Shown one piece after another: positions 4,875-28,027 of a DNA stretch of 45,768 bases (positions within the stretch are counted from its first letter, which is position 1; the number at the start of each line of letters is the position of its first letter). Made by a program: the position numbers and the translations under genes. The stretch is from the IMG/VR virus record IMGVR_UViG_3300029914_000050, positions 1 to 45,768 of that record; one strand, written 5' to 3'. Source of the DNA: a virus. The notes under the pieces were generated by a model. The model was not told where the DNA came from, did no database searches, and was given only the letters and a program-made list of their open reading frames with translations.

Positions 4875-5821
4875 AGTACAGAGACGAGGACTATTACAGG
4901 AAGGACGGGTTGCTGAAACCGCAGACTACAATGAGCAGCGATGTAGTGTTGTGTACGACGATGACGAAGTATAAGACGCTCCGCGGGTGGGACGGCACAG
5001 AGGTTACCGTTTACGAGGACGGGCCACGGGATGAGATGACATTTACAGCACCTATCTGCAGTTTCCGCTGCCCGGTGACGAGGATGGGGTATCTCTTCAA
5101 CTTGAAGGAGGAAGAGACATACCTCAGGGCCTGCGACCTCAGGACAGAATGGGAAAAGGTTGCGATACGCGAGTGGGCATGCGAGCGGTCCGAGAAGAAC
5201 TACCAGTACATGTACGGCCGAAGCGAAGGTAGATGGGACGACTATCGCGGAGTGTGGGTTGGCGTCGACCGCGCATTCGGGTATGGTGAAGATCATCCCA
5301 ACTGTCGGTGCGTGACAACGCCCGTGGATTGGGACGAAGAACTACAACAGCAACAGAGGAGACAAGGCATGAATCTGACCACAGCGATATTCATCATCAA
5401 CCCCAACGTACGGGCCATCCGCGTGAGCTACGAGCCCGGCCGAGAGGGCGACCAGTACGTGTTCAAGTCGTTCGACCAGTCCATCAAGGTGGACGACATG
5501 GTCGTCATTCCGACCGACAGCCGCTACAAGCAGACGGTCGGCAAGGTCGTCGAGGTGGATCTCGACATCGACATCGACTCGTCCATCCAGTTCAAGTGGA
5601 TCATCGACAAGGTGGACCTCGCCGCGCACCAGAACGTCCTCGACCTCGAGGCGGACGCGGTCAAGAAGATCAAGTCGGCCGAGATGCTGTCGAAGCGCAA
5701 GGAGCTGTCCGAGAAGCTGAAGGCGGACAACCCCGGCCTGCTCGACAACCTAGCGATCGCGGACGCCTCGTTCGGCGCCCCGGCGACACCGGCACTGCCA
5801 GACGCGAAGACAGCGTCCTAG
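4871..5821 (+). CDS. Hypothetical fused reading frame, 316 aa
   Basis: One uninterrupted frame joins two apparent modules. Residues 1-166 are unfamiliar, rich in Tyr and Trp, and contain DHPNCRCVTTP, a motif like the HPNCRC end of Mu gpF/SPP1 gp7-type head proteins. Residues 167-316 match a conserved phage protein that normally stands alone. A glutamine-rich bridge (EELQQQQRRQG) joins them, and a strong ribosome site lies just before the internal ATG at 5369. It is either a true fusion or two genes whose boundary lost its stop codon. Confidence 0.6.
   Translation: MKYRDEDYYRKDGLLKPQTTMSSDVVLCTTMTKYKTLRGWDGTEVTVYEDGPRDEMTFTAPICSFRCPVTRMGYLFNLKEEETYLRACDLRTEWEKVAIREWACERSEKNYQYMYGRSEGRWDDYRGVWVGVDRAFGYGEDHPNCRCVTTPVDWDEELQQQQRRQGMNLTTAIFIINPNVRAIRVSYEPGREGDQYVFKSFDQSIKVDDMVVIPTDSRYKQTVGKVVEVDLDIDIDSSIQFKWIIDKVDLAAHQNVLDLEADAVKKIKSAEMLSKRKELSEKLKADNPGLLDNLAIADASFGAPATPALPDAKTAS
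5369..5821 (+). CDS. Conserved phage protein, internal start (150 aa)
   Basis: AGAGGAGAC precedes this ATG by six bases. From it the product reads MNLTTAIFIINPNVRAIRVSY and continues with VKVDDMVVIPT, KVVEVDLDIDIDSSIQFKW and EADAVKKIKSAEMLSKR. I recognise this as a widespread small phage protein (FIINPN.RA.RV.Y...DY.VVPT...V..VD...D...) of unknown function. It probably is made from its own start even if the longer in-frame product is also made. Confidence 0.65.
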   Translation: MNLTTAIFIINPNVRAIRVSYEPGREGDQYVFKSFDQSIKVDDMVVIPTDSRYKQTVGKVVEVDLDIDIDSSIQFKWIIDKVDLAAHQNVLDLEADAVKKIKSAEMLSKRKELSEKLKADNPGLLDNLAIADASFGAPATPALPDAKTAS

Positions 5822-7701: not shown

Positions 7702-8942
7702 GCCCGAGGATAGACGACCACGGGAAGGCACACGCGAGGCTCAGCGCCTCGGAGAGTCACCGGTGGATGGAGTGCCCGGGCTCGGTCCAGCTGATCGAGA
7801 AACTGCCTCCACAGCTGAAGCGCAAGTCCAGCTGGCACGCAGACCAGGGCACCGCGGCGCACGCGCTGGGCGAACTCTGCCTGAAGACGAGGCGCACCCC
7901 GAAGGGCTACATGAACAAGGAGATCGCGGGCTTCGAGGTCGACCAGGACATGGTCGAGGCCGTCGACGTCTACCTGGCCGAGATCGCCGCGCAGAGGAAG
8001 CGCTACCCGAAGGCGGAGTTCGCCGTGGAGAAGCGGTTCGACGGCAGTTGGTTCGACCCCGACATGTTCGGGACGGGCGACTACTCGCTGTCCGCGATAT
8101 TCGACCGATTCATCATCACCGACTACAAGCACGGCAAGGGCGTGCCGGTGGAGGTGGTGCAGAACCCGCAGCTGAAGATATACGGGTTCCTGGGCGCCGC
8201 CGAGGACGACTTCCAGTACGACGTCGCCGAGTTCGTCATCGCCCAGCCGCGCGCGCCGCACAGGGACGGGGGGATCAGGCGCTGGGAGATGCCCATGGCG
8301 GACCTGAAGGCGTGGGGCTTCGACGTGCTGAAGCCGGCGGCGGACGCCACGCGTAAGAAGGACGCGCCGCTGGTGTCCGGCGACCACTGCAAGTGGTGCC
8401 TCGCGCTGTCCACGTGCCCGCGCGTCACCGAGGACACGGCGGCCGTCGGGCTCGCGGGCTTCACCGAGGACGGGTTGGCCGACCTCGGGCACAACGGCGG
8501 GCCGGTCATGGACCCGCCGGGCGACGACGGCCACGCTCGCTCGCTCGCCTCCGCCCTCGAGAAGCTGCCCGCGCTGAAGGCGTACGTGAAGTCGGTCACG
8601 GCCGACGCCTACTCCGCCAGCAAGGCTGGCCTCAAGATACCCGGCTGGAAGCTGGTCGAGGGCAAGCTCGGCGACCGCACGTTCGCGGACGAGAAGAAGG
8701 CCACCCGCGTGTTCAAGAAGCACGGCGTGGGCGTCGACCAGCTCGTGGTGACGACGGCGAAGATGCTGACGCCCGCGCAGGCCGAGAAGCTGCTGCCCAA
8801 GGAGGTGCGCAGGGAGGTCATGGCGCCGCTCGTGGCGAGGGCGCCGGGCAGACCGACGCTGGCGCGCGACTCGGACCCGAGGCCGCCGATCGACCCGAAG
8901 GACGTGTTCCCCGACGACGAGGGGACGGACTATGCTGACTGA
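7698..8942 (+). CDS. DUF2800 (PD-(D/E)XK, Cas4/RecB-like) nuclease
   Basis: The 414-residue protein opens with ARLSASESHRWMECPGS and GTAAHALGEL, the DUF2800 signature. Candidate catalytic residues are Asp128 in GTGDYSL and Asp142/Lys144 in ITDYKHGKG, the D...DxK of the PD-(D/E)XK fold. Cys231, Cys234 and Cys240 (CKWCLALSTCP) would bind an iron-sulfur cluster, as in Cas4-like nucleases. The family acts in phage recombination and often sits, as here, next to DUF2815 and a family A polymerase. GTG start chosen by its overlap with the previous stop. Confidence 0.88.
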   Translation: MSPRIDDHGKAHARLSASESHRWMECPGSVQLIEKLPPQLKRKSSWHADQGTAAHALGELCLKTRRTPKGYMNKEIAGFEVDQDMVEAVDVYLAEIAAQRKRYPKAEFAVEKRFDGSWFDPDMFGTGDYSLSAIFDRFIITDYKHGKGVPVEVVQNPQLKIYGFLGAAEDDFQYDVAEFVIAQPRAPHRDGGIRRWEMPMADLKAWGFDVLKPAADATRKKDAPLVSGDHCKWCLALSTCPRVTEDTAAVGLAGFTEDGLADLGHNGGPVMDPPGDDGHARSLASALEKLPALKAYVKSVTADAYSASKAGLKIPGWKLVEGKLGDRTFADEKKATRVFKKHGVGVDQLVVTTAKMLTPAQAEKLLPKEVRREVMAPLVARAPGRPTLARDSDPRPPIDPKDVFPDDEGTDYAD

Positions 8943-9192: not shown

Positions 9193-9430
9193 GTTCTACC
9201 TCCACATCACGAACCCGCAGTGGTACGCGCTGCGCGACATGGTACTGGTCAAGGAGCGCCGCATCTTCCCGCGCTGCGAGATGCCGAGGGTCGACGACCG
9301 CATGGCGGCGTCGCTCGTGGAGAAGGGCGTCCTCGTCGCGATCGCCGGCGACAAGTACCGCATCACCGACCAGGGGGTGGACGCCATGAGGCGCGTGGAG
9401 GCCCTGCATGAGCGTCAGACGAGGGACTGA
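9182..9430 (+). CDS. Small winged-helix-like protein
   Basis: The 82-residue protein ends with DDRMAASLVEKGVLVAIAGDKYRITDQGVDAMRR. This is the recognition helix, beta-wing and final helix of a winged helix-turn-helix (L..KG.l.....yrIT..G...l). The N-terminal half (FYLHITNPQWYALRDM) is less clear. A DNA-binding regulator or replication accessory is plausible. The fold is read from the pattern only. Confidence 0.6.
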   Translation: MTNKFYLHITNPQWYALRDMVLVKERRIFPRCEMPRVDDRMAASLVEKGVLVAIAGDKYRITDQGVDAMRRVEALHERQTRD

Positions 9431-10019
9431 GCGGGACGGCTACATGTGGTCCAACCAGAAGAGGCGCATCAAGAGGCAGCTGTTCAACCGCGACGGGTCG
9501 TTCTGCGCCGGCGAGGGGTGCTTCATCGCGTTCGCGCACGAGCGCGAGGCCACCATCGACCACGTCAGACCCCGCTCGAAGGGGGGTTCCAACGAGCTCG
9601 CTAACCTGCAATTGATGTGCAAGAAGTGCAACGAGGAGAAGGGCAACAGGTATGGAGAAGATCTTAGACATAGAGGTGGAGCTGCTCCACGAGACGCCGG
9701 CGGCGTACCGGGTGGCGAGCTGCACGACGGGGAAGGTGGCGTGGGTGCCGAAGTCGCAGTGCGAGCTGGACGGCGAGTCGCTGCAGCTGCCCGCGTGGCT
9801 GGCGGAGGAGAAGGGCCTGGTGTGAGGCGCTTCAAGGTCCGCGTCCAGAGGATCCAGCACTTCGTCGCCGAGATCGAGGCCCCCACGGCGCTGCAGGCCA
9901 TAGCGAAGATCAGGGATGTGTTCCTGTGGCCGCACGCGCTGACGCAGGAGAAGTGGCAGCTGCTCGACATCGACGAGGGGGCTGCCGTGCAGGCTTCTAT
10001 TTTACGGAAGCGACGCTAG
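9408..10019 (+). CDS. HNH endonuclease with anomalous read-through end
   Basis: Residues 20-81 form a complete HNH domain: Cys33/Cys38 and Cys71/Cys74 as zinc knuckles, IDHVRPRSKGG with Asp51-His52, and NELANLQLMC. Such enzymes cut DNA with a beta-beta-alpha-metal site; stand-alone phage copies may aid packaging or nicking. Beyond about 9655 the frame continues with Gly/Arg-rich sequence that is the out-of-frame shadow of the gene at 9652-9825. It then merges in frame with the gene at 9822-10019, and there is no stop before 10019. The working protein may be only the first ~85 residues. Confidence 0.6.
   Translation: MSVRRGTERDGYMWSNQKRRIKRQLFNRDGSFCAGEGCFIAFAHEREATIDHVRPRSKGGSNELANLQLMCKKCNEEKGNRYGEDLRHRGGAAPRDAGGVPGGELHDGEGGVGAEVAVRAGRRVAAAARVAGGGEGPGVRRFKVRVQRIQHFVAEIEAPTALQAIAKIRDVFLWPHALTQEKWQLLDIDEGAAVQASILRKRR
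9652..9825 (+). CDS. Small hypothetical protein nested in HNH frame
   Basis: ATG at 9652 opens a 57-residue frame (MEKILDIEVELLHETPAAYRV..., ending LPAWLAEEKGLV). Nearly every codon ends in G or C after the first few, as in this phage's true genes, so this frame rather than the HNH frame looks coding over this stretch. A purine-rich AAGGGCAACAGG precedes it. It reads like a small beta-sheet protein; family unknown. Confidence 0.6.
   Translation: MEKILDIEVELLHETPAAYRVASCTTGKVAWVPKSQCELDGESLQLPAWLAEEKGLV
9822..10019 (+). CDS. Small hypothetical protein, GTG start
   Basis: A GTG overlapping the TGA of the previous small gene opens a 65-residue frame: MRRFKVRVQRIQHFVAEIEAPTALQAIAKIRDVF. The strand-helix pattern (FKVRVQ...FVAEIEA.TALQAIAKI) is like small phage proteins of unknown role. 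It lies in the same frame as the HNH gene, so it would be the C-terminus of that product if translation reads through. Confidence 0.55.
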   Translation: MRRFKVRVQRIQHFVAEIEAPTALQAIAKIRDVFLWPHALTQEKWQLLDIDEGAAVQASILRKRR

Positions 10020-11540: not shown

Positions 11541-11954
11541 ATGACGAAGGACGAGGAGAAGGAGAGAGACCGCATCCTCGCCGAGACGATAAAGCGTTGG
11601 CAGATGAAGGGCGGCGTCATCAAGAAGGTGAAGGCGCCGAAGGTCAGCGTCGAACACGTGCCGGTGGCCAAGTACAAGCTGGCCACCGGCACGCCGCCGC
11701 CTGAGCCCTACAGTCCGCCCCCTAAACTCCTCAAGAGACTGCTCGCCCGCAGGGGTCCCCCCATCAAGAACAAGAAGCTCGACCTAGCGGTCGGCGACAT
11801 GGTGTTGGTGCCGGACTACGCGGAGGGCGTGTTCCACCGGGTGGAGGTCGTGTCCGTCGACCCAGAGGAGGTGACTGTGCGTTACAGCGACGGGAGGGTC
11901 AGACTGGCCGACCCTGTATGGGCCAGGGCACCGCATTGGAGTGAAGGACAATGA
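11541..11954 (+). CDS. Hypothetical protein with KOW/Tudor-like C-terminal domain
   Basis: The 137-residue protein has a basic helical start, a proline-rich middle (TGTPPPEPYSPPP) and a C-terminal beta segment LAVGDMVLVPDYAEGVFHRVEVVSVDPEEVTVRYSDGR. The GD.V.V......G....V..V....V.V.Y.DG pattern is that of a small KOW/Tudor-like barrel. The function is unknown. It ends in an ATGA overlap with the AT-rich insert. Confidence 0.65.
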   Translation: MTKDEEKERDRILAETIKRWQMKGGVIKKVKAPKVSVEHVPVAKYKLATGTPPPEPYSPPPKLLKRLLARRGPPIKNKKLDLAVGDMVLVPDYAEGVFHRVEVVSVDPEEVTVRYSDGRVRLADPVWARAPHWSEGQ

Positions 11955-12349
11955 AAACACGACCTGTTAATTGGAATTTTAAAAATCTAGAATATCAACG
12001 TCAATTAAATATAAGTTGGCGTAGAAGGAATTATGCCAAGACACTATATAATCGATTGAAAAACAGGGCTCTGAAAAGGGAATTACCTTTTGATCTAACT
12101 ATTACTTGGATAGAGAAAAGACTTAAAGGTATGACATGCGAAATAACAGGTGTCCCTCTGTCGTTGGACTTATCTAAGACTCTTAGAAGTAATCCATGGT
12201 CTCCTTCATTTGACCAAAAGAAACCAGGCAAGGGGTATACTAAAAGAAATACACAACTAGTGTGTTGGTGTTATAATGCTGCAAAAGGTGCATGGGGTCA
12301 TGATGCGGTAGTGATAATGGCAGAAGCTTTAACAGGGGCAGACAAATGA
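11951..12349 (+). CDS. HNH-type homing endonuclease-like protein, AT-rich
   Basis: The 132-residue basic protein carries CEITGVPLSLD...PWSPSFDQKKPGKGYTKRNTQLVCWCYNAAKGAWG. I recognise a phage HNH-like family (CEVTG.PF......PFSPSLDRI.P.KGYT..N..LV....N.A.G.WG), with the nuclease centre around SFDQ and the downstream Asn. Its DNA is strikingly AT-rich with A/T-ending codons, unlike the GC-rich neighbours. It sits in a four-base ATGA overlap at both ends, so it looks like a recently acquired selfish gene slotted into the operon. Confidence 0.72.
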   Translation: MKTRPVNWNFKNLEYQRQLNISWRRRNYAKTLYNRLKNRALKRELPFDLTITWIEKRLKGMTCEITGVPLSLDLSKTLRSNPWSPSFDQKKPGKGYTKRNTQLVCWCYNAAKGAWGHDAVVIMAEALTGADK

Positions 12350-12519
12350 AAGTTACTAAAATAACGGTTGAGAGAGTAGTGAACTTAGGAGATTTTGAGA
12401 ACGAGAGGCTGGCTGTCACCGTGGTCGTCGAAGAGGGGGACAGCCCGGCAGCGGTCGTCATGAACGCCCGCAAGTTCATCAACGACCAGCAGAAGCTACT
12501 GCCGCGGAAGAAGGGCTGA
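12346..12519 (+). CDS. Small conserved phage protein (MKVTKITVERVVNLG type)
   Basis: The 57-residue product (MKVTKITVERVVNLGDFENERLAVTVVVEEGD...) resembles a widespread small phage beta-rich protein (K....V.R..NLG.YE..R.E..V...EGD). Its first ~50 bases are AT-rich like the insert before it, and the rest is GC-rich. That suggests the gene's 5' end was exchanged along with the insert. It ends directly at the ATG of a second AT-rich gene. Confidence 0.7.
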   Translation: MKVTKITVERVVNLGDFENERLAVTVVVEEGDSPAAVVMNARKFINDQQKLLPRKKG

Positions 12520-12941
12520 TGACGACGGAGGTCACATGTAGCGTTTCCAATTGTTCTCGTCCATCGAGAATAAAAGGTATATGCCAAACACATTATATGC
12601 GTCTACATAGAACTGGTAGCGTCAATGAATCATCCCCTATTGGTGCTAGAAACCATGGATTTGCTAAGAATAAAACTCCAGAATATCATTCTTGGATGAT
12701 GGCTCGCAATAGATGTAATAATCCCAATGATAAATATTATCCATATTATGGTGGACGTGGAATTAAATTTTGTCCCAGATGGGATAGTTTTGTCTTATTT
12801 TTAGAGGACATGGGCCCAAGACCTGTCGGCATGACACTTGACAGGAAAGATGGGAACAAGGATTACGAACCTTCGAATTGTCGATGGGCTACATATCTAG
12901 AACAACAAAGGAATAGAGAGAAACGTGGAATAAAACTATGA
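12519..12941 (+). CDS. HNH-type homing endonuclease-like protein, AT-rich
   Basis: The 140-residue protein has an N-terminal CxxxxC...C..H module (CSVSNCSRPSRIKGICQTHY). It is followed by EYHSWMMARNRCNNPN, YYGGRGIKFCPRWDSFVLFLEDMG, MTLDRKDGNKDYEPSNCRWAT and QRNR. This is the phage HNH family usually seen as free-standing homing endonucleases (W..M..RC.NP....Y..YGGRGI...W, LDRID...Y.P.NCRW). Base and codon use are AT-rich. It lies immediately before the DNA polymerase gene, a favoured homing target, and overlaps its start by four bases. Confidence 0.82.
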   Translation: MTTEVTCSVSNCSRPSRIKGICQTHYMRLHRTGSVNESSPIGARNHGFAKNKTPEYHSWMMARNRCNNPNDKYYPYYGGRGIKFCPRWDSFVLFLEDMGPRPVGMTLDRKDGNKDYEPSNCRWATYLEQQRNREKRGIKL

Positions 12942-15187
12942 CTACTAAAGTGACTTTTGATTTCGAAACGCGCTCGCACGTCCCCCTCGCCGGCCCGCTG
13001 TCGGTCGGTTCGTACCTGTACTCGAAACACCCGACGACCGAGGTGATGTGCGCGTCCTGGCGGATCGACTGGCCGAACGGCGCCGTCACGAAGGCGAGGT
13101 GGCACCCAGCGTATGAGGAGATCGGCATCCAAGAGGAAGGCTTCGAAGACTTAGCGGAACTGCTGGAGGTCATCGAGAAGAGGGATTGGATCACAGGACA
13201 CGACGACGTCGTCATCGAGGCGCACAACGCCTCGTTCGAACGCAACATATGGATGAACGTCTGCGTGCCTAAGTTGGGGTGGCCCGCCGTGGACGACCGC
13301 ATGTGGCGGTGCTCCGCGGCGAAGGCCTCCGCGCACGCGCTGCCGCGTAAGTTGGAAGACGGGTGCAAGGCGCTGAGGCTCGACGTGCAGAAGGACATGG
13401 CAGGCCACAGGGTGATGACGAAGCTCTGTCGACCCAAGAAGGACGGCGCGTGGCCGGGCACGGCCGAGGAGTTCCAGAAGCTGTTCGACTACTGCGACCG
13501 CGACGTCGAGGCCGAGCACGGGCTCTCGTCGCAGCTGGTGGACCTGACACCGCTCGAGCAGGAGATCTGGTTCATGGACCAGACGATCAACGCGCGCGGC
13601 GTGATGGTCGACGTGCGGCTGGCCACCAAGGCGGTCTCCCTCGTCGACGAGATCAAGACGCGGAACAACAGGAAGTTCGCCGAGCTCACGGGGCTCAAGA
13701 CCGTGTCGCAGCGCGACGCGTTCAAGGCGTGGATGGACACGTTCGCCGACCGCCCGCTCGCCGACACGCAGGGCACGACGCTCGTCTCGGAGCTCGCCCG
13801 GGGCTACTCCGACCCCGACGTGCAGGCGGCGGTGGAGCTGGTGTACAGGACCAACCGCTCCTCGACGAAGAAGTTCGAGACGATGCTGCGCCTGTCCGAC
13901 CCCGACGACTCGCGCGTGCGCGGCACGCTGGTCTACTGCGGCGCGGAGCGCACCGGCAGGTTCGCTGGCAGGGGCATCCAGCCGCACAACTACCCGAAGG
14001 GCAAGGTGAAGGACATGGACGCCGCGTGCGACGAGGTCCTGGACAACGACCTGGCTGAGCTCGAGGCCGCGCACCCCGACGTCATGGAGCGACTCTCGCA
14101 CATCGCGCGCGGCGCCATCGTCGCGCCGCCGGGCCGGGACCTGATGGTGTCCGACTTCGCGGCGATCGAGGCGCGCGTCATCCTGTGGTACGCCGGGGAG
14201 GAGGAGATGCTGGAGCTGATCCGCTCAGGCCAGTGCATCTACTGCGACATGGCCTCCGACATCTACGGCCGCCCGATCGCGCGTCGGAAGGGCGAGTTGG
14301 AGCCAGAGCGCAACCTGGGCAAGCAGGCGGTGCTCGGGCTGGGGTTCGGCATGGGGTGGCCGAAGTTCGTCGCGACGTGCGAGCGGTTCGGCATCGTCAT
14401 CGACGAGAAGCTCGCCGCGCACGCGGTGAAGGTCTACCGCAACAAGTGCAAGAAGGTGGTGGGCTGGTGGACGCTGCAGGAGGACACGGCGGTCCACGCG
14501 ATGAAGAACCCCGGCGAGTGGCACCAGGCCGGCAGGGTCAGCTGGGCGCTGAGCGAGGACAGACGCTTCCTGCGCTGCAGGCTCCCGTCCGGCCGCGACA
14601 TCGTCTACCCGTGGCCGCAGCTCGTCCACAGCATGTCCTACTACTTCCGCGCGAAGAAGGGCGCCGACGGGGAGCTGCAGTGGTTCACCCTGACCAACAA
14701 CTCGGGCAACCCCGCGCCGTGGACCCACGAGCAGGTGATGTACGAGGCGAGGAGGAAGGCGCGCAAGGCGGGCGTCGTCCTGGTGAACCCCGAGACGAAG
14801 GACGGCCTGCCGCCGCGCCCAGGCGAACCCATGTACTTCCTGCGCGAGAAGTGGACACTCAAGTACGTCGGCAAGGACACGGACACGAAGACCAACCGAC
14901 AGGACGACGTCACGCAGTGGGGCTGGGTGCACACGTACGGCGGGAAGCTGACCGAGAACATCGTGCAGGCCACCGCGCGCGACCTGATGGCCGAGGCGAT
15001 GCTCCGCGTGCACAACAGCGGCAAGTACGACGTCGTCCTCAGCGTGCACGACGAGCTCGTCTGCGAGGTCGACGCGTGGGACGGGGACCAGGAGGAGTTC
15101 GACGCCCTGATGGCCGAGACGCCGGAGTGGGCGGAGGGGTGTCCCGTGGCGGCCGAGGGTTGGCGCGGGAAGAGGTATAGAAAATGA
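12938..15187 (+). CDS. Family A DNA polymerase
   Basis: The 749-residue enzyme should replicate phage DNA. A DEDD-type exonuclease region starts at once (FDFETRS, Asp8/Glu10; AHNASFERNIW; YCDRDVEAE). Polymerase motif A is SDFAAIEARV (Asp406), motif B is RNLGKQAVLGLGFG (Lys462) and motif C is SVHDELV (His704-Asp705). Between motifs B and C lies an extra segment with VMYEARRKARKAG and a region typical of phage enzymes of this DFETRS group. The first ~30 bases are AT-rich, continuous with the upstream HNH gene, and the rest has the phage's GC-rich codon use. Confidence 0.95.
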   Translation: MTTKVTFDFETRSHVPLAGPLSVGSYLYSKHPTTEVMCASWRIDWPNGAVTKARWHPAYEEIGIQEEGFEDLAELLEVIEKRDWITGHDDVVIEAHNASFERNIWMNVCVPKLGWPAVDDRMWRCSAAKASAHALPRKLEDGCKALRLDVQKDMAGHRVMTKLCRPKKDGAWPGTAEEFQKLFDYCDRDVEAEHGLSSQLVDLTPLEQEIWFMDQTINARGVMVDVRLATKAVSLVDEIKTRNNRKFAELTGLKTVSQRDAFKAWMDTFADRPLADTQGTTLVSELARGYSDPDVQAAVELVYRTNRSSTKKFETMLRLSDPDDSRVRGTLVYCGAERTGRFAGRGIQPHNYPKGKVKDMDAACDEVLDNDLAELEAAHPDVMERLSHIARGAIVAPPGRDLMVSDFAAIEARVILWYAGEEEMLELIRSGQCIYCDMASDIYGRPIARRKGELEPERNLGKQAVLGLGFGMGWPKFVATCERFGIVIDEKLAAHAVKVYRNKCKKVVGWWTLQEDTAVHAMKNPGEWHQAGRVSWALSEDRRFLRCRLPSGRDIVYPWPQLVHSMSYYFRAKKGADGELQWFTLTNNSGNPAPWTHEQVMYEARRKARKAGVVLVNPETKDGLPPRPGEPMYFLREKWTLKYVGKDTDTKTNRQDDVTQWGWVHTYGGKLTENIVQATARDLMAEAMLRVHNSGKYDVVLSVHDELVCEVDAWDGDQEEFDALMAETPEWAEGCPVAAEGWRGKRYRK

Positions 15188-18256: not shown

Positions 18257-19003
18257 ATGGTTAAAGTTTCAACTAAGAAACAAAGGAAACCTGTCGAACC
18301 CGTCGAAGCCCTGTGGCCAGACGACGGGATGACGATGGAGATGCTCTCCGACAGACTCGGCTGGGCCAGGGTCTACTGGACCATAGGGCCGTCGCCCCGG
18401 AGCGCCGTGTACCCGAACGACGTGAAGGACCCGCCGAACGCCGGCTGGTCGCACGCATTCGTCCTGCCCTCGGGCGGGAGGAGGGTGCGCCTGTTCTGCC
18501 CCTTCACGTTCCAGGGCTACGACGTCGGCGAGAAGTCGGCCGAGTACAACAGCCTGACCATGCCGAGGAAGCCGCTCCGCGCGGGGTGGATGGCCGAGAC
18601 GATGCTCGAGAACTGGAAGGCGAACGAGCGGTACGGTTTCCAGCGCGACTACGACACCGCGACCCGCGTCTTCATGGCCATGGGCCTAGACGTGCCGATG
18701 CGGGTCGAGAAGCCCGTCGAGGTGGGCGCCGAGCCGAAGAAGCGCAAGGGCAAGCCCGCAGGGCCGACGCTCCTGAAGCCCGTGGCGCGCGACAGTCGCC
18801 GTGGCAGGGTGCTCGACTGGTTCATGGACAGCATGGAGCCGCGCTCCGTGCGCGAAGCGATGGCGGAGTTCGACACGACCCGCTCGAACATCCTCACGGT
18901 GTTCTTCCAGCTCAACAAGGACCACGGCATCGGCTACACGCTGTCCGGCGACGCCGCGGAGCTCGAGCTGCCGAAGGCCGGTTGCAAGCAACTCTTCTGC
19001 TAG
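18257..19003 (+). CDS. Hypothetical protein with C-terminal winged-helix-like domain
   Basis: The 248-residue protein has an unfamiliar alpha/beta N-terminal part (WARVYWTIGPSPRSA..., GWSHAFVLPSGGRRVRLFCPFTFQG) and a basic linker. A C-terminal helical domain (GRVLDWFMDSMEPRSVREAMAEFDTTRSNILTVFFQLNKDHGIGY) resembles the winged-helix unit found at the end of several phage proteins (AM.EF..TR.N....L..L.K.HGIGY.L.GD.A...LP). A DNA-binding role is likely. GGGAGGGCGAC precedes the ATG. Confidence 0.7.
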   Translation: MVKVSTKKQRKPVEPVEALWPDDGMTMEMLSDRLGWARVYWTIGPSPRSAVYPNDVKDPPNAGWSHAFVLPSGGRRVRLFCPFTFQGYDVGEKSAEYNSLTMPRKPLRAGWMAETMLENWKANERYGFQRDYDTATRVFMAMGLDVPMRVEKPVEVGAEPKKRKGKPAGPTLLKPVARDSRRGRVLDWFMDSMEPRSVREAMAEFDTTRSNILTVFFQLNKDHGIGYTLSGDAAELELPKAGCKQLFC

Positions 19004-19012
19004 GAATGTAAC

Positions 19013-19264
19013 ATGGGATTGTTAAAAGGGTATGAACGCATGGATAAGATTCGAAATAAAGTGTCTAAGAAAAAGACGAGGTCAAGAATTGCGAGTTCAA
19101 AGGTAGAGTGGATGCAGAGGTTCGAGAACATATTCGGCTTCGAGGTTATGTATAAAGATCGCTATATGGCGTATGAGATTACTTGGGATCAATTCAAATT
19201 ATTGAATCTTACGTGGATCAAGAAAAATACGGAAGTAGGCATAAATCTATTGGAGGGGTTGTGA
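19013..19264 (+). CDS. AT-rich orphan gene, 83 aa
   Basis: The product (MGLLKGYERMDKIRNKVSKKKTRS...) is basic at its start and ends NLTWIKKNTEVGINLLEGL. Codons end mostly in A or T, in sharp contrast to both neighbours, which suggests recent transfer. I do not recognise a family or a nuclease motif. GGAATGTAAC precedes the ATG, and the TGA overlaps the next GTG. Confidence 0.6.
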   Translation: MGLLKGYERMDKIRNKVSKKKTRSRIASSKVEWMQRFENIFGFEVMYKDRYMAYEITWDQFKLLNLTWIKKNTEVGINLLEGL

Positions 19265-19482
19265 AAATCCCCAAGATAATAATCGACGAGCTCGAGAGGT
19301 GGGACCTGAACTACGAGTTCGTCGACGGCGGCCCACACGTGAAGCTCTACGTGGACGGGAGGTTCATAGGCATAGTGCCGAAGGGTTCCAAGAAGGACAC
19401 CATGGGCGGACGCGGGGGCATGAACATAAGGGGCAACATACGCCGCGCGGCCCGCGGAATCCAAGGGCTGCGCGGCGGGTGA
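19261..19482 (+). CDS. Small HicA-like or related phage protein
   Basis: A GTG in the previous stop opens a 73-residue frame: VKIPKIIIDELERWDLNYEFVDGGPHVKLYVDGRFIGIVPKGSKKDTMGGRG. It ends in a basic helix (NIRRAARGIQGL). The strand-loop with VKL.VDG.F.GI.P.G followed by a N...IRRA helix matches a small phage/bacterial family distantly like HicA-type dsRBD toxins. No His equivalent to the HicA catalytic residue is clear, so toxin activity is not claimed. Confidence 0.6.
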   Translation: MKIPKIIIDELERWDLNYEFVDGGPHVKLYVDGRFIGIVPKGSKKDTMGGRGGMNIRGNIRRAARGIQGLRGG

Positions 19483-22179: not shown

Positions 22180-22604
22180 GCCTGGAGTCTTCCCTCTGGG
22201 GTTGGCTGTACAGGGTGTGGAAGGACGTCAAGGGACTCCACTTCACGCGCATAGAGAACTCCGCGTCGTCCGGCACGCCGGACGTGGAGGGGTGCACCGG
22301 CGGTCTGCAGTTCTGGATAGAGCTCAAGATCGCCAAGAGGCCGAAGCACAGACACGACATCATCAAATTAGACCACTTCCGCGTCAAGCAGGTGGTGTGG
22401 CTCCACAACAGGTGGCTGGTCGACGGGAGGGCCTGGGTACTGGTGAGGGTCGAGGGCAACGGCCCCCGGGTCCACTATCTCCTGAGCGGCGGCATGGCCC
22501 GCGCGCTGTACGAAGGGATGACCGAGGACGCCATGGACGAAGTGTCCTGGATCGACGCACACGCATCGCCCATGGATGTGTTGCGCCGGGCGAGCGTCTG
22601 GTAA
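22176..22604 (+). CDS. VRR-NUC-like nuclease
   Basis: The 142-residue protein has RIENSASSGTPDVEG (Asp36) and FWIELKIAK (Glu49, Lys51), the PD...ExK core of VRR-NUC and Holliday-junction-resolvase-like nucleases. It is followed by DHFRVKQVVWLHNR and AWVLVRV, which match the family's later strands. Phage versions are thought to resolve branched DNA. It ends the nucleotide/recombination operon, and the GTG start overlaps the reductase stop. Confidence 0.8.
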   Translation: MSLESSLWGWLYRVWKDVKGLHFTRIENSASSGTPDVEGCTGGLQFWIELKIAKRPKHRHDIIKLDHFRVKQVVWLHNRWLVDGRAWVLVRVEGNGPRVHYLLSGGMARALYEGMTEDAMDEVSWIDAHASPMDVLRRASVW

Positions 22605-22623
22605 CTTTTCGTTAGCTATAAAG

Positions 22624-22639
22624 TCCAAGTATACTTGAA
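22624..22639 (+). repeat. 16-nt palindromic motif, copy 2
   Basis: TCCAAGTATACTTGAA contains the perfect 12-bp palindrome CAAGTATACTTG and is preceded by a TATAAA-like hexamer (22617-22622). It is near-identical to the motif at 18000-18015. Probably an operator or a phage-specific promoter element. Confidence 0.6.
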
Positions 22640-22647
22640 AATAGTGC

Positions 22648-22676
22648 TTTACTTCCAAGCTTGGACATGGCACAAT
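22648..22676 (+). promoter_or_regulatory. Promoter with an embedded palindromic operator
   Basis: TTTACT (22648-22653) and CACAAT (22671-22676) are 17 nt apart. The spacer begins with the perfect palindrome TCCAAGCTTGGA (22654-22665), which shares TCCAAG with the motif just upstream. A repressor bound there would block RNA polymerase. The promoter would serve the early small-gene operon starting at 22726. Confidence 0.6.
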
Positions 22677-22683
22677 ATTCTTA

Positions 22684-22707
22684 ATCGATCGGGATCATCC
22701 GGTCGAT
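22684..22707 (+). promoter_or_regulatory. Inverted repeat in the leader of the early operon
   Basis: ATCGATCGG (22684-22692) and CCGGTCGAT (22699-22707) form a 9-bp inverted repeat with one mismatch around GATCAT. It lies just downstream of the expected transcription start and could be an operator or a leader hairpin. Confidence 0.45.
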
Positions 22708-22725
22708 GAAACCTAGGAGAAAACC

Positions 22726-22887
22726 ATGGAAAAATCGAAAACCACCTATTGGGCTGTTTATCAGCAGAAGGACATCTTGTTCTCAGGTACGTTCACGCAA
22801 TGCTGGAACTATCTGACGATGGAGTTCGGACACATGACGATGGCTGAAGTCGTCATGGTGGGCGTCAAGATCGCCCGCAAGGCTTAA
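22726..22887 (+). CDS. Small early protein, 53 aa
   Basis: CCTAGGAGAAAACC precedes the ATG. The product (MEKSKTTYWAVYQQKDILFSGTFTQCWNYLTMEFGHMTMAEVVMVGVKIARKA) looks like a small alpha/beta protein. It is the only gene between a promoter and a strong terminator, so it may be expressed early and at a high level. Such genes often encode host-takeover proteins; the family is not recognised. Confidence 0.65.
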   Translation: MEKSKTTYWAVYQQKDILFSGTFTQCWNYLTMEFGHMTMAEVVMVGVKIARKA

Positions 22888-22893
22888 CCCTAA

Positions 22894-22919
22894 GGGGAGC
22901 CTACGGGCTCCCCACTTTT
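22894..22919 (+). terminator. Rho-independent terminator
   Basis: A perfect 8-bp stem, GGGGAGCC with GGCTCCCC, closes a TACG loop and is followed by ACTTTT. It lies 6 nt after the stop of the 53-residue early gene. Confidence 0.85.
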
Positions 22920-22941
22920 CCACACGCTAAGGAGACTGACC

Positions 22942-23208
22942 ATGAAGAAAGATCCATTATTCTCAGAAGAAAATGTTGAACTCGTCGCGAACGAGTTCTT
23001 GAAGATTCTCACACGTTGGTTCGCGCACGACGGCAAGAAGCTCTCAGCAGACAGAGTCAAGAACGCGAATGACTACTACGACGCCAACATGGCTATGTTA
23101 GAGGCGGCTGAGAAATGCGACGCCACAGCGAACATAGAAGACGAAAAATTCTACTACTTTATGAATCGTGCGTGGAGCAGAGCCATCGAAATTCAAACCA
23201 AGAAATGA
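22942..23208 (+). CDS. Small early protein, 88 aa
   Basis: The product is helical and acidic (NVELVANEFLKILTRWFAHDGKK, DRVKNANDYYDANMAMLEAAEKCD, FYYFMNRAWSRAIEIQ). No family is recognised. It is the first of a series of small genes that share the leader GGAGACTGACCATG. Base composition is lower in GC than the replication genes. Confidence 0.65.
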   Translation: MKKDPLFSEENVELVANEFLKILTRWFAHDGKKLSADRVKNANDYYDANMAMLEAAEKCDATANIEDEKFYYFMNRAWSRAIEIQTKK

Positions 23209-23219
23209 GGAGACTGACC

Positions 23220-23387
23220 ATGACTAAGACAGAACGCTACGTGCGTAAACAAATAAAGACTTTGGAGAAGGACATCGTGTTCGACGGACAGGTGTACAGT
23301 CGCGGCATGCTCGCCGCATTCCAACTTGTTCTACAAAGAATCGAGGATGAGAAGATAGACGAGTTCTTGGACGAGGTACCATTATGA
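23220..23387 (+). CDS. Small early protein, 55 aa
   Basis: The protein (MTKTERYVRKQIKTLEKDIVFDGQVYSRGMLAAFQLVLQRIEDEKI...) appears to be a helical hairpin. It begins with the repeated leader GGAGACTGACC and its stop overlaps the next ATG. Function not recognised. Confidence 0.6.
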   Translation: MTKTERYVRKQIKTLEKDIVFDGQVYSRGMLAAFQLVLQRIEDEKIDEFLDEVPL

Positions 23388-23551
23388 AGACGCTCATACC
23401 CTTCCTGTCCGTGGTGCTAGTGGTGTGCCTTGGCGCGTACAGCCAAGGCTACCGCGTCTTGAACCTCAACCAGTTCGACTTCCTCACGCAACTCGAACTC
23501 GTAGGTGCCTTGAGCAAGGAGGTACACCATGACGGTGCGCGTGCTGAGTAA
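23384..23551 (+). CDS. Small membrane-anchored or exported protein
   Basis: The ATG overlaps the previous stop. The 55-residue product starts with a hydrophobic segment (LIPFLSVVLVVCLGAYSQG) that could be a signal anchor, then a short polar helix (FDFLTQLELVGALSKEV). Its last 23 bases overlap the next gene. Function unknown. Confidence 0.55.
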   Translation: MKTLIPFLSVVLVVCLGAYSQGYRVLNLNQFDFLTQLELVGALSKEVHHDGARAE

Positions 23552-26144: not shown

Positions 26145-26330
26145 TCAGGACCCCTGAGTGGGGCTAGGCGTAGGGCTAGGTGTCGCTTGCAGCGTAGCAA
26201 TCTGGCTCTGCCAGTTGGTGATTTGCAGGCCCAGAGTGGTATTCTGGCGGGCTGCATTGGCCGTGTTTGTTGCTTGCTGTGCCTCGGCAGCAGCGACATT
26301 AGCGTTCAGTACGTCGATCTGTGTAGTCAT
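26145..26330 (-). CDS. Small coiled-coil protein
   Basis: The 61-residue product (MTTQIDVLNANVAAAEAQQATNTANAARQNTTLGLQITNWQSQI...) has a heptad-like helix and a Pro/Ser/Thr tail (TPSPTPSPTQGS). AAAGGAGACTCTT precedes the ATG. It lies just after the AT-rich fibre gene and could be a fibre-associated trimerising peptide; this is inference. Confidence 0.55.
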   Translation of the reverse strand: MTTQIDVLNANVAAAEAQQATNTANAARQNTTLGLQITNWQSQIATLQATPSPTPSPTQGS

Positions 26331-26341
26331 AAGAGTCTCCT

Positions 26342-28027
26342 TTAAAAACCTTCGATGATTAAAAAACCCGTGCTGGTAGTTCCAGTCACGGTGACAGCAG
26401 TGGTAGAAAGGCTCGTAATAAGTGTTGCAGTGAGTTCATTGGTATTCAAAATAGCGGGCGTGTGTGAGAATGCGGTAGGAAATGTGTATGATGCTGTCCC
26501 TAGCAAAGCGGCGCAATAGATAATCACCTTTTTATAACTGCTGCCCTGCTCCGGTTGCGAAAACACTGCCGAGCCGGAAGTAGAGCCGCTCACGGTTGTT
26601 TGGACTGCCGTATTGTTGACGATAGGTGTCGAAAGTGATTGCCCCGCCGTGATACCTGTCGATTGGCTTATACTAAGCGTCACGGCAGAATACGCACTCC
26701 CGGGATCGCCAAGAAGAATATCACCAGCATTATCCGTACTCAAATAGATGTTGCCATTTGTGTCGGAGAATGCGCTCCCCTGAATATTGGCCTCTGATAC
26801 CAGGCCATCTTCAAATGTAGGTGAACCACCACTCATAATAAAGGAGCCTGTGATATACCCAAGGCCATTATTAAATATCAATGTTTCTGTACTTACACTT
26901 GTACTAAAAAATGCTGTTCCATTCGGTGTGATATTCCAAATATTCCCGTTGCCATCCCCCTGAGAATTTCCGGCATCGTACATAAATGTATTCGAGGAAT
27001 CGCCGTTAATATTTCCGCCATCAAAATCCATCAGGTAGGAGTCATTGTTGTAGAACCGCCCGGTGTTAATCCCTATGCCGTAGAAAGCCCCTACAGCACC
27101 CCACTGCACGAACTCACCGTTTGAAAATCCGGCAGCATATTGAAGCAAGCTATCATCGCCGTTTACATCATACACATAAGTGGTGTATCTACGCTGCTCC
27201 CCACTCGCGTCACGATTACAATAATTAATCTCTCCGTATCGCTGGCCATATCCCCCATACATAGTAAAGGAGCACCAATTCTCCCCAAAGTTTTCATCGA
27301 GTGCGCCAATGCCGAACAGAACATCGTCTGTCGAATCGTAAGCAGCGATTAGTGGCTGGTTATAGCCGTCTGCAATAGCGGAAAAGCCTTGTACGATTAA
27401 GGCAGTCGTTGCCGATGTGCCCGTGCTGATTGTTGTCGTATTGGTAAAAAGATTCTGTCCGGTGAAAGTTTGGTCAGCATTTAATAGCGCAAGATTGCTA
27501 GATGCAATGCCGCTGTCCTGCACGAGCTTGCCCCCGGTGCCGCTGAAGGACGCGATGTGCCCGGAGACCGCCGAGCTGGGGCCGGCCACGAACGAGGCTG
27601 CGTTGCCGTTCAACTTGCCGATGGCCACGACGACACTGTCCGTGGCCGCGATGACGCCGGCGGAGGACGCGTAACCGGTGAGGGGCGCGGATATGGCCCG
27701 GGAGTTCGTGAAGTAGAGGTTCGTGTTCTCCGTCACCTGCGCGGTGGTGTAGTCCCCGGCCGTCGCGACTATCGCCCCGTTGCGGCCGAAGACTGACGTC
27801 ACACCCGCGGGAGTCGGTGTCTGCCACGACACGGCGTAGTCCGCGTTGCTGCTCTTCGTGGCGACCTGGCCCGTGGTGCCGCCGACGGGCAGACCCCGGC
27901 CGGACGCGCCCTGTGGACCGACACCCGCCAGGTTGACCACCATGGAGACCGGGGACAACGTCACCTTGATAGCGTTGTTCACCACGACAACGGCGGTGGG
28001 CTGGGAGACGATGGTGACGTTTGTCAT
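26342..28027 (-). CDS. Tail fibre / receptor-binding protein, mosaic
   Basis: The 561-residue protein has a GC-rich N-terminal part (to about residue 175) with beta structure, a short [11 protein letters not shown] collagen-like stretch and a [19 protein letters not shown] linker of the type seen in phage fibres. The C-terminal two thirds is AT-rich and different in codon use: [34 protein letters not shown], many Gly/Asn/Asp turns, and a final [16 protein letters not shown] region. This is typical of a receptor-binding module acquired separately from the virion-anchoring part. It should decide host surface recognition. Confidence 0.75.

Follow-up and report, generated by a model that had tools for sequence, protein, structure and literature searches.

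Free-standing homing endonuclease genes (HEGs) are best known from phage T4, in which the promoter-less seg and mob genes lie between essential genes, with start/stop overlaps (UAAUGA in mobE), find their targets in neighbouring essential genes and move by intronless homing with co-conversion of the flanks (PMC2988022). Likewise, the IPA-HNH HEGs of the HEG-islands described by Barth, Dunham and Seed in 2023 cluster at replication genes, several at one locus, and 29% of them are near a DNA polymerase (PMC10448857). Here we analyse a window of 45,768 bases (GC 63.2%), the IMG/VR phage record IMGVR_UViG_3300029914_000050, in which two AT-rich nuclease genes, HNH1 and HNH2, stand before a family A DNA polymerase gene (polA). 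We assign a probability of about 0.74 to the reading that both are free-standing, homing-type, PacI-like nuclease genes, recently acquired, with flanking co-conversion at the start of polA. They are very probably selfish mobile genes, most likely of an established type but with a scar that is unusually easy to read, and their cleavage and homing activities are predicted.

The locus shares with T4 the overlapping gene borders, and probably also the targets in neighbouring essential genes and the co-converted flanks. It differs in that the base composition itself marks the tract, and in that seg genes encode a different type of nuclease; besides, T4 enzymes cut at a distance of hundreds of bases or more, whereas the shortness of the tract in the window suggests a site close to where polA begins. 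Cargo like that of HEG-islands, more than 90% identical between unlike phages, was not seen here; the bracketed gene, of 57 amino acids, is an apparent orphan.

The replication module consists of an SSB-like gene, three GC-rich genes, HNH1, the 57-aa gene, HNH2 and polA, in this order (Table 1). An earlier note, made from the sequence alone, had already reported that the nuclease pair brackets the 57-aa gene beside polA, that both nuclease genes are AT-rich amid GC-rich DNA and that they fit their neighbours through ATGA or TGATG overlaps, and all of this was borne out. The GC content is 0.371 in HNH1 and 0.392 in HNH2, against 0.632 for the window, and that of third codon positions (GC3) is 0.26 and 0.28, respectively, against 0.94 in polA and 0.83–0.95 across the upstream genes and polA. 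The start of HNH1 overlaps the stop of the upstream gene by 4 bases (ATGA at 11951), and the next three borders overlap by 4 bases (HNH1 and the 57-aa gene; ATGA at 12346), 1 base (the 57-aa gene and HNH2; TGATG at 12517–12521) and 4 bases (HNH2 and polA; ATGA at 12938). Overlaps of 4 bases are also an ordinary style of this genome, with three further cases among 29 adjacent pairs in a rough gene list.

A two-state segmentation of base composition delimited two AT-rich islands, each beginning near the start of its nuclease gene and reaching over its stop into the next gene, which is the 57-aa gene for island 1 (55 bases) and polA for island 2 (31 bases). These lengths agree with the approximately 50 and 30 bases given in the earlier note; of the AT-rich edges that it described, those downstream are clear overshoots, but upstream the islands simply start near the nuclease start. 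The change within polA is abrupt, with a GC3 of 0.30 in codons 2–11, 0.92 in codons 12–60 and 0.97 after codon 165, and codons 2–11 of the 57-aa gene have a GC3 of 0.2. Such low values exceed chance expectation, as only one of 28 other likely genes falls as low. Beyond the 11-codon dip, codons 61–165 of polA show a GC3 of 0.85 against the later 0.97 (within 12938–13432), perhaps an older conversion tract.

Table 1. Genes and composition features at the nuclease/polA locus (window coordinates)
Feature	Position	Strand	Description or basis
Upstream gene	11541..11954	+	GC-rich, 137 aa; stop overlaps HNH1 start by 4 bases
HNH1	11951..12349	+	132 aa; PacI-like beta-beta-alpha-metal endonuclease, probably homing-type; PHROG profiles and structure model
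57-aa gene	12346..12519	+	About 17 initial codons AT-rich, remainder GC-rich and native-looking
HNH2	12519..12941	+	140 aa; N-terminal Cys/His stretch and beta-beta-alpha-metal domain (LDR...Y.P.NCRW), probably homing-type; PHROG profiles and model
polA	12938..15187	+	749 aa; family A DNA polymerase with 3'-5' exonuclease domain; PF00476 (E 1.8e-16), phrog_17 (E 1.8e-96)
AT-rich island 1	11935..12401	.	GC 0.37; segmentation, left edge 11930–11954, right edge 12394–12410
AT-rich island 2	12532..12968	.	GC 0.38; segmentation, left edge 12517–12563, right edge 12961–12971
AT-rich polA codons 1–11	12938..12970	+	Presumed conversion scar; GC3 by codon range
Codons of exonuclease motif DFETRS	12959..12976	+	Proposed target region, from the end of the AT-rich tract
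MTTEVT in GC-style codons	12519..12535	+	Possible captured native polA start; residues shared with polA start

Support comes from a survey of 82 polA genes, taken from the window and from 81 of 88 loci (the frame was not recovered in L056, L057, L058, L059, L060, L065 and L080), in which we compared the GC3 of approximately the first 30 codons with that of the codons beyond 150. The mean shift was −0.286 in the nine polA genes directly preceded by a nuclease and +0.006 (sd 0.094) in the 73 others. All seven most AT-shifted genes (ranks 1–7) are nuclease-adjacent, with the window polA at rank 7 over 30 codons and at rank 2 over 10 codons. The contrast persisted after clustering at 60% identity (7 vs 42 clusters, p 2.7e-5), although P values of this survey are descriptive, given the relatedness of the sequences and the retrieval of four nuclease-adjacent loci through nuclease searches. 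In mixed clusters, the nuclease-less members were flat, at 0.01 in the eight L025 relatives and 0.02 in the L014 relative, with the exception of the L035 cluster, where nuclease-bearing and nuclease-less members are both slightly negative.

A closer comparison was possible among Pseudomonas-type loci. Two of them, L025 and L098 (the latter retrieved by a nuclease query), carry HNH1-family genes before polA with an ATGA overlap, and their sister L026, approximately 90% identical to L025 nearby, does not, so that the presence of the nuclease is polymorphic at a fixed site by a conserved gene. Over roughly 300 bases from the polA start, identity to L026 drops to 0.70–0.80, lower than in any other interval downstream, and GC drops with it. 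The GC3 of polA in L025 and L098 is 0.45 in codons 1–20, 0.53 in codons 21–60 and 0.60–0.64 in codons 61–115, and then 0.88–0.96, whereas it is 0.92–0.98 throughout in L026. L098 also has HNH1-family genes on both sides of polA (5124–5552 and 7942–8349).

The comparison with insert-less relatives proposed in the earlier note was approached with this trio and with the survey, using distant relatives. The closest polymerases found in phages or viral contigs are only about 41–46% identical to that of the window, and therefore the junctions of this phage cannot be mapped directly. In relatives, the polA 5' tract is tied to an upstream nuclease, which supports flanking co-conversion at polA and speaks against a simple effect of the start codon; in the window itself, co-conversion is suggested by composition.

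We propose that both genes are of the PacI-like (DR-type) beta-beta-alpha-metal kind and came recently from an AT-rich source. HNH2 would have its target at the polA 5' end, probably close to the DFETRS codons of the exonuclease motif, and the break in a nuclease-less polA would be repaired from a nuclease-bearing copy. Repair would bring in the nuclease gene plus the donor polA start, so that the recipient polA would begin with an AT-rich tract of mostly synonymous changes. The 1- and 4-base overlaps would keep the operon readable, HNH2 may use the old polA start codon, and HNH1 would have acted likewise at the 57-aa gene.

Several observations weigh against this scenario, besides the origin of four survey loci in nuclease searches. 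In L035 and the Aeromonas phage phiWae15, the tract is slight or absent in spite of the adjacent nuclease (ranks 20 and 28 among the 82), and in L026 the slot is occupied by another gene (phrog_1934), which indicates replacement at a shared slot and no clean insertion. A degenerate pattern for an uninterrupted polA start, MT..VT.DFET, matched no viral contig. Among 28 other likely window genes, one (at 18257) has a start as AT-rich as those of polA and the 57-aa gene (GC3, codons 2–11). Both nuclease families also adjoin unrelated genes, and both proteins miss the canonical general-base His that closes beta strand 1 in HNH enzymes. Homing with flanking co-conversion, as put forward in the earlier note, is nevertheless the best reading for polA, but it does not extend with significance to other genes (39 downstream genes vs 193 controls, p 0.19, with gene starts called crudely and 13 loci omitted as duplicates or already-used polA loci).

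Nucleases of both families recur in the same slot. Two nuclease-family profiles gave 12 matches in 11 of 91 polA loci, a set including six remote polymerases from a genome-contig scan that entered only this search; six of the matches are upstream of polA, and five of these directly abut it (L014, L024, L025, L035 and L098). In L035, polA apparently lacks a usual start codon, with the nuclease stop overlapping an ATA/ATT near the expected start (approximately 4980–5000). For HNH2, a full-length homologue in L101 (2492–2914) has an SSB-like gene on one side and polA (from 2911) on the other, overlapping the latter by 4 bases; the homologue in phiWae15, its best phage match, ends 16 bases before polA; and in L163 (2225–3127) the HNH2-family domain is fused in one frame to a MazG pyrophosphohydrolase domain, directly 5' of polA. 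The Staphylococcus phage BE02 has its HNH2 homologue 5' of dnaE2. Together, phiWae15 and BE02 are the two of ten annotated phage records with a polymerase next to the HNH2 homologue, and in the remaining ones the homologues adjoin capsid, tail or recombination genes or unknown ones; two further records carry no annotation. Homologues of HNH1 were found in 22 loci, among others 5' of polA (L194, L195 and L204), a DNA polymerase (L192), a primase/helicase (L196, L197 and L213) and a helicase (L193); a search with HNH1 by itself found no viral contig.

HNH1 matches the PHROG profiles phrog_3322 (endonuclease, E 4.5e-29) and phrog_1035 (endonuclease VII), and HNH2 matches phrog_3377, phrog_8790 and phrog_374 (E 1e-33 to 1e-36), which are HNH or restriction endonucleases; neither has a convincing match in Pfam or NCBIfam. 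Both AlphaFold models, built with locus homologues (pLDDT 83.7 for HNH1 and 89.4 for HNH2), contain the two strands and helix expected of a beta-beta-alpha-metal site, and their best PDB match is PacI (3ldy). The match of HNH1 has Z 9.5, with 112 aligned residues and a root-mean-square deviation of 5.8; that of HNH2 is weak (Z 5.8, 75 aligned, 2.9) and within the range of chance similarity. PacI, a restriction enzyme, has DR instead of DH, and its GY..N motif is common to the HNH1 family. At the position of the missing His, HNH2 has D108-R109, with the R invariant in 36 sequences, and HNH1 has D88-Q89; the HNH2-family profile touches I-HmuI at E 0.68, with the DH of I-HmuI aligned to the DR of the family. 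The absence of the first His led us to discard both as canonical HNH motif endonucleases. HNH1 was also discarded as a DHHRN (Endo VII-type) member: it is of the beta-beta-alpha-metal kind, like the homing endonuclease F-CphI, and matches the endonuclease VII PHROG, but it lacks the DHDH and the CxxC pairs of F-CphI (PMC6083498), and its alignment holds only one invariant Cys and SxD[QR].

The genes could also have been acquired by ordinary illegitimate recombination and be inactive or otherwise employed, for instance in host takeover or exclusion, as the lost His, the presence of both families at many sites and a weak match of HNH1 to a decoy-of-sigma70 profile (phrog_4592, E 0.0004) might suggest. 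In PacI, however, a Tyr is placed to act as the base instead of His and the enzyme cuts DNA (PMC4081073), and therefore the absence of the canonical His in HNH1 and HNH2 need not mean inactivity. The recurrent position directly before polA and other replication genes, and the tract in the downstream gene, also speak against acquisition without homing, which we consider unlikely.

Quite unlikely, too, is that the AT-rich starts were selected for translation initiation, or for re-initiation after an overlapping gene, and are no recombination scar. The AT-rich start of the gene at 18257 would fit this explanation, as would the short tracts of the window and L014, of approximately 11–28 codons. 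Nevertheless, 22 nuclease-less polA genes that overlap or abut the upstream frame show no shift (−0.014), and the tract in L025 and L098 reaches about 100–110 codons, with none in L026.

An origin of the tract in error-prone repair of repeated nuclease cuts, as proposed for fungal intron borders (PMC5378118), rather than in donor import, appears very unlikely. In codons 21–115 of L025 and L098, 90–95% of the codons keep the amino acid while the changes go toward lower GC3, and in codons 1–60 both loci share 87–89% of their bases with each other and only 69–77% with L026, which fits a shared imported tract. Despite the resemblance between the starts of HNH2 and polA, it is highly improbable that island 2 represents a mobile group I intron close to where polA begins, in which HNH2 would be read from the exon upstream and the gene start would be duplicated. 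PolA has its own start codon and an intact frame, and Rfam searches of the region brought up no intron even at E 10, while none reached the gathering thresholds in the whole window or in seven related loci, although a diverged intron could escape this search.

The AT-rich tract ends at the DFETRS codons in the window and within two codons of them in L014, and further on in L025, L098 and L024, so that an HNH2 target near these codons may be inferred for the window; in T4, recognition sites often span functionally critical codons (PMC2988022).

HNH2 begins with MTTEVT in GC-style codons and polA with MTTKVT in AT-style codons. Four of the five residues after Met are common to both, a likeness not repeated in any other of the 666 pairings of window gene starts, and of 76 other polA starts none fits HNH2 equally at the residue level and one at the base level; taken by itself, the DNA repeat lacks significance, with 13 of 20 bases matching against a background median of 13. 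Additionally, HNH2 has six residues before its first Cys, against 3–5 in the seven HNH2 relatives with N-termini examined. A landing of HNH2 a few codons inside polA, keeping the old start and giving the donor start to polA, would yield both the likeness and the six-residue lead. The first codons of HNH2 thus look like a captured copy of the polA start, which is suggestive only. Start capture as a general property was rejected: among 80 HNH2 homologues, the starts of the nuclease and the next gene are no more alike than shuffled pairs (3/6 matching in 7 loci vs 4.6 expected, 4/6 in none). The starts of HNH1 and the 57-aa gene have only one of five residues in common, and seven other polA-adjacent nucleases show no clear capture, with 3/6 shared in L101. 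As it is not a general family feature, we suggest capture for the window alone.

A more far-reaching version is possible rather than probable, and we offer it tentatively: nucleases before polA would spread by replacing the first part of the target gene, HNH2 having taken the polA start codon and recoding the start up to the exonuclease motif. Each spread would rewrite the invaded polA and make the site immune, and the composition scar would mark past homing and predict the cut site. Past homing may be readable from composition, as polA genes with an upstream nuclease mostly have an AT-recoded start and those without do not. The foreign-looking polA start suggests that such invaders rewrite the beginning of the adjoining gene as well. 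If the scar marks the cut side, sequence could serve to predict the targets of phage nucleases not yet characterised, and the replicative polymerase would turn out to be rewritten time and again by selfish genes. In the open-licence literature searched, which leaves out most subscription papers, no account was found of polA starts recoded toward AT next to phage nucleases. The closest reports concern introns, not free-standing phage genes: gradients of single-nucleotide polymorphisms and excess host-gene diversity beside the homing element in yeast mitochondria (PMC5378118), and N-terminal duplications of host genes carried by Tremella introns (PMC7315562).

Regarding the neighbouring genes, the one upstream of HNH1 has no confident family match in Pfam, PHROG or NCBIfam searches, and the 57-aa gene has no phage homologue, reaching phrog_5189 only at E 0.021; three loci retrieved with its protein (L004–L006) were judged false matches. 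A canonical, GC-rich HNH gene is found at 9408–10019, just 5' of the SSB-like gene (Pfam HNH, E 3e-12; HNH_5, E 1.5e-12). The window also contains a third AT-rich island of a single gene (18982–19283), comprising an 83-aa gene (19013–19264, GC 0.38) without PHROG or Pfam match, which overlaps the next gene through GTGA and whose AT-richness continues about 22 bases into it. Milder AT-rich stretches, with a GC of 0.46–0.47, occur at 22602–23398 and 26296–27508.

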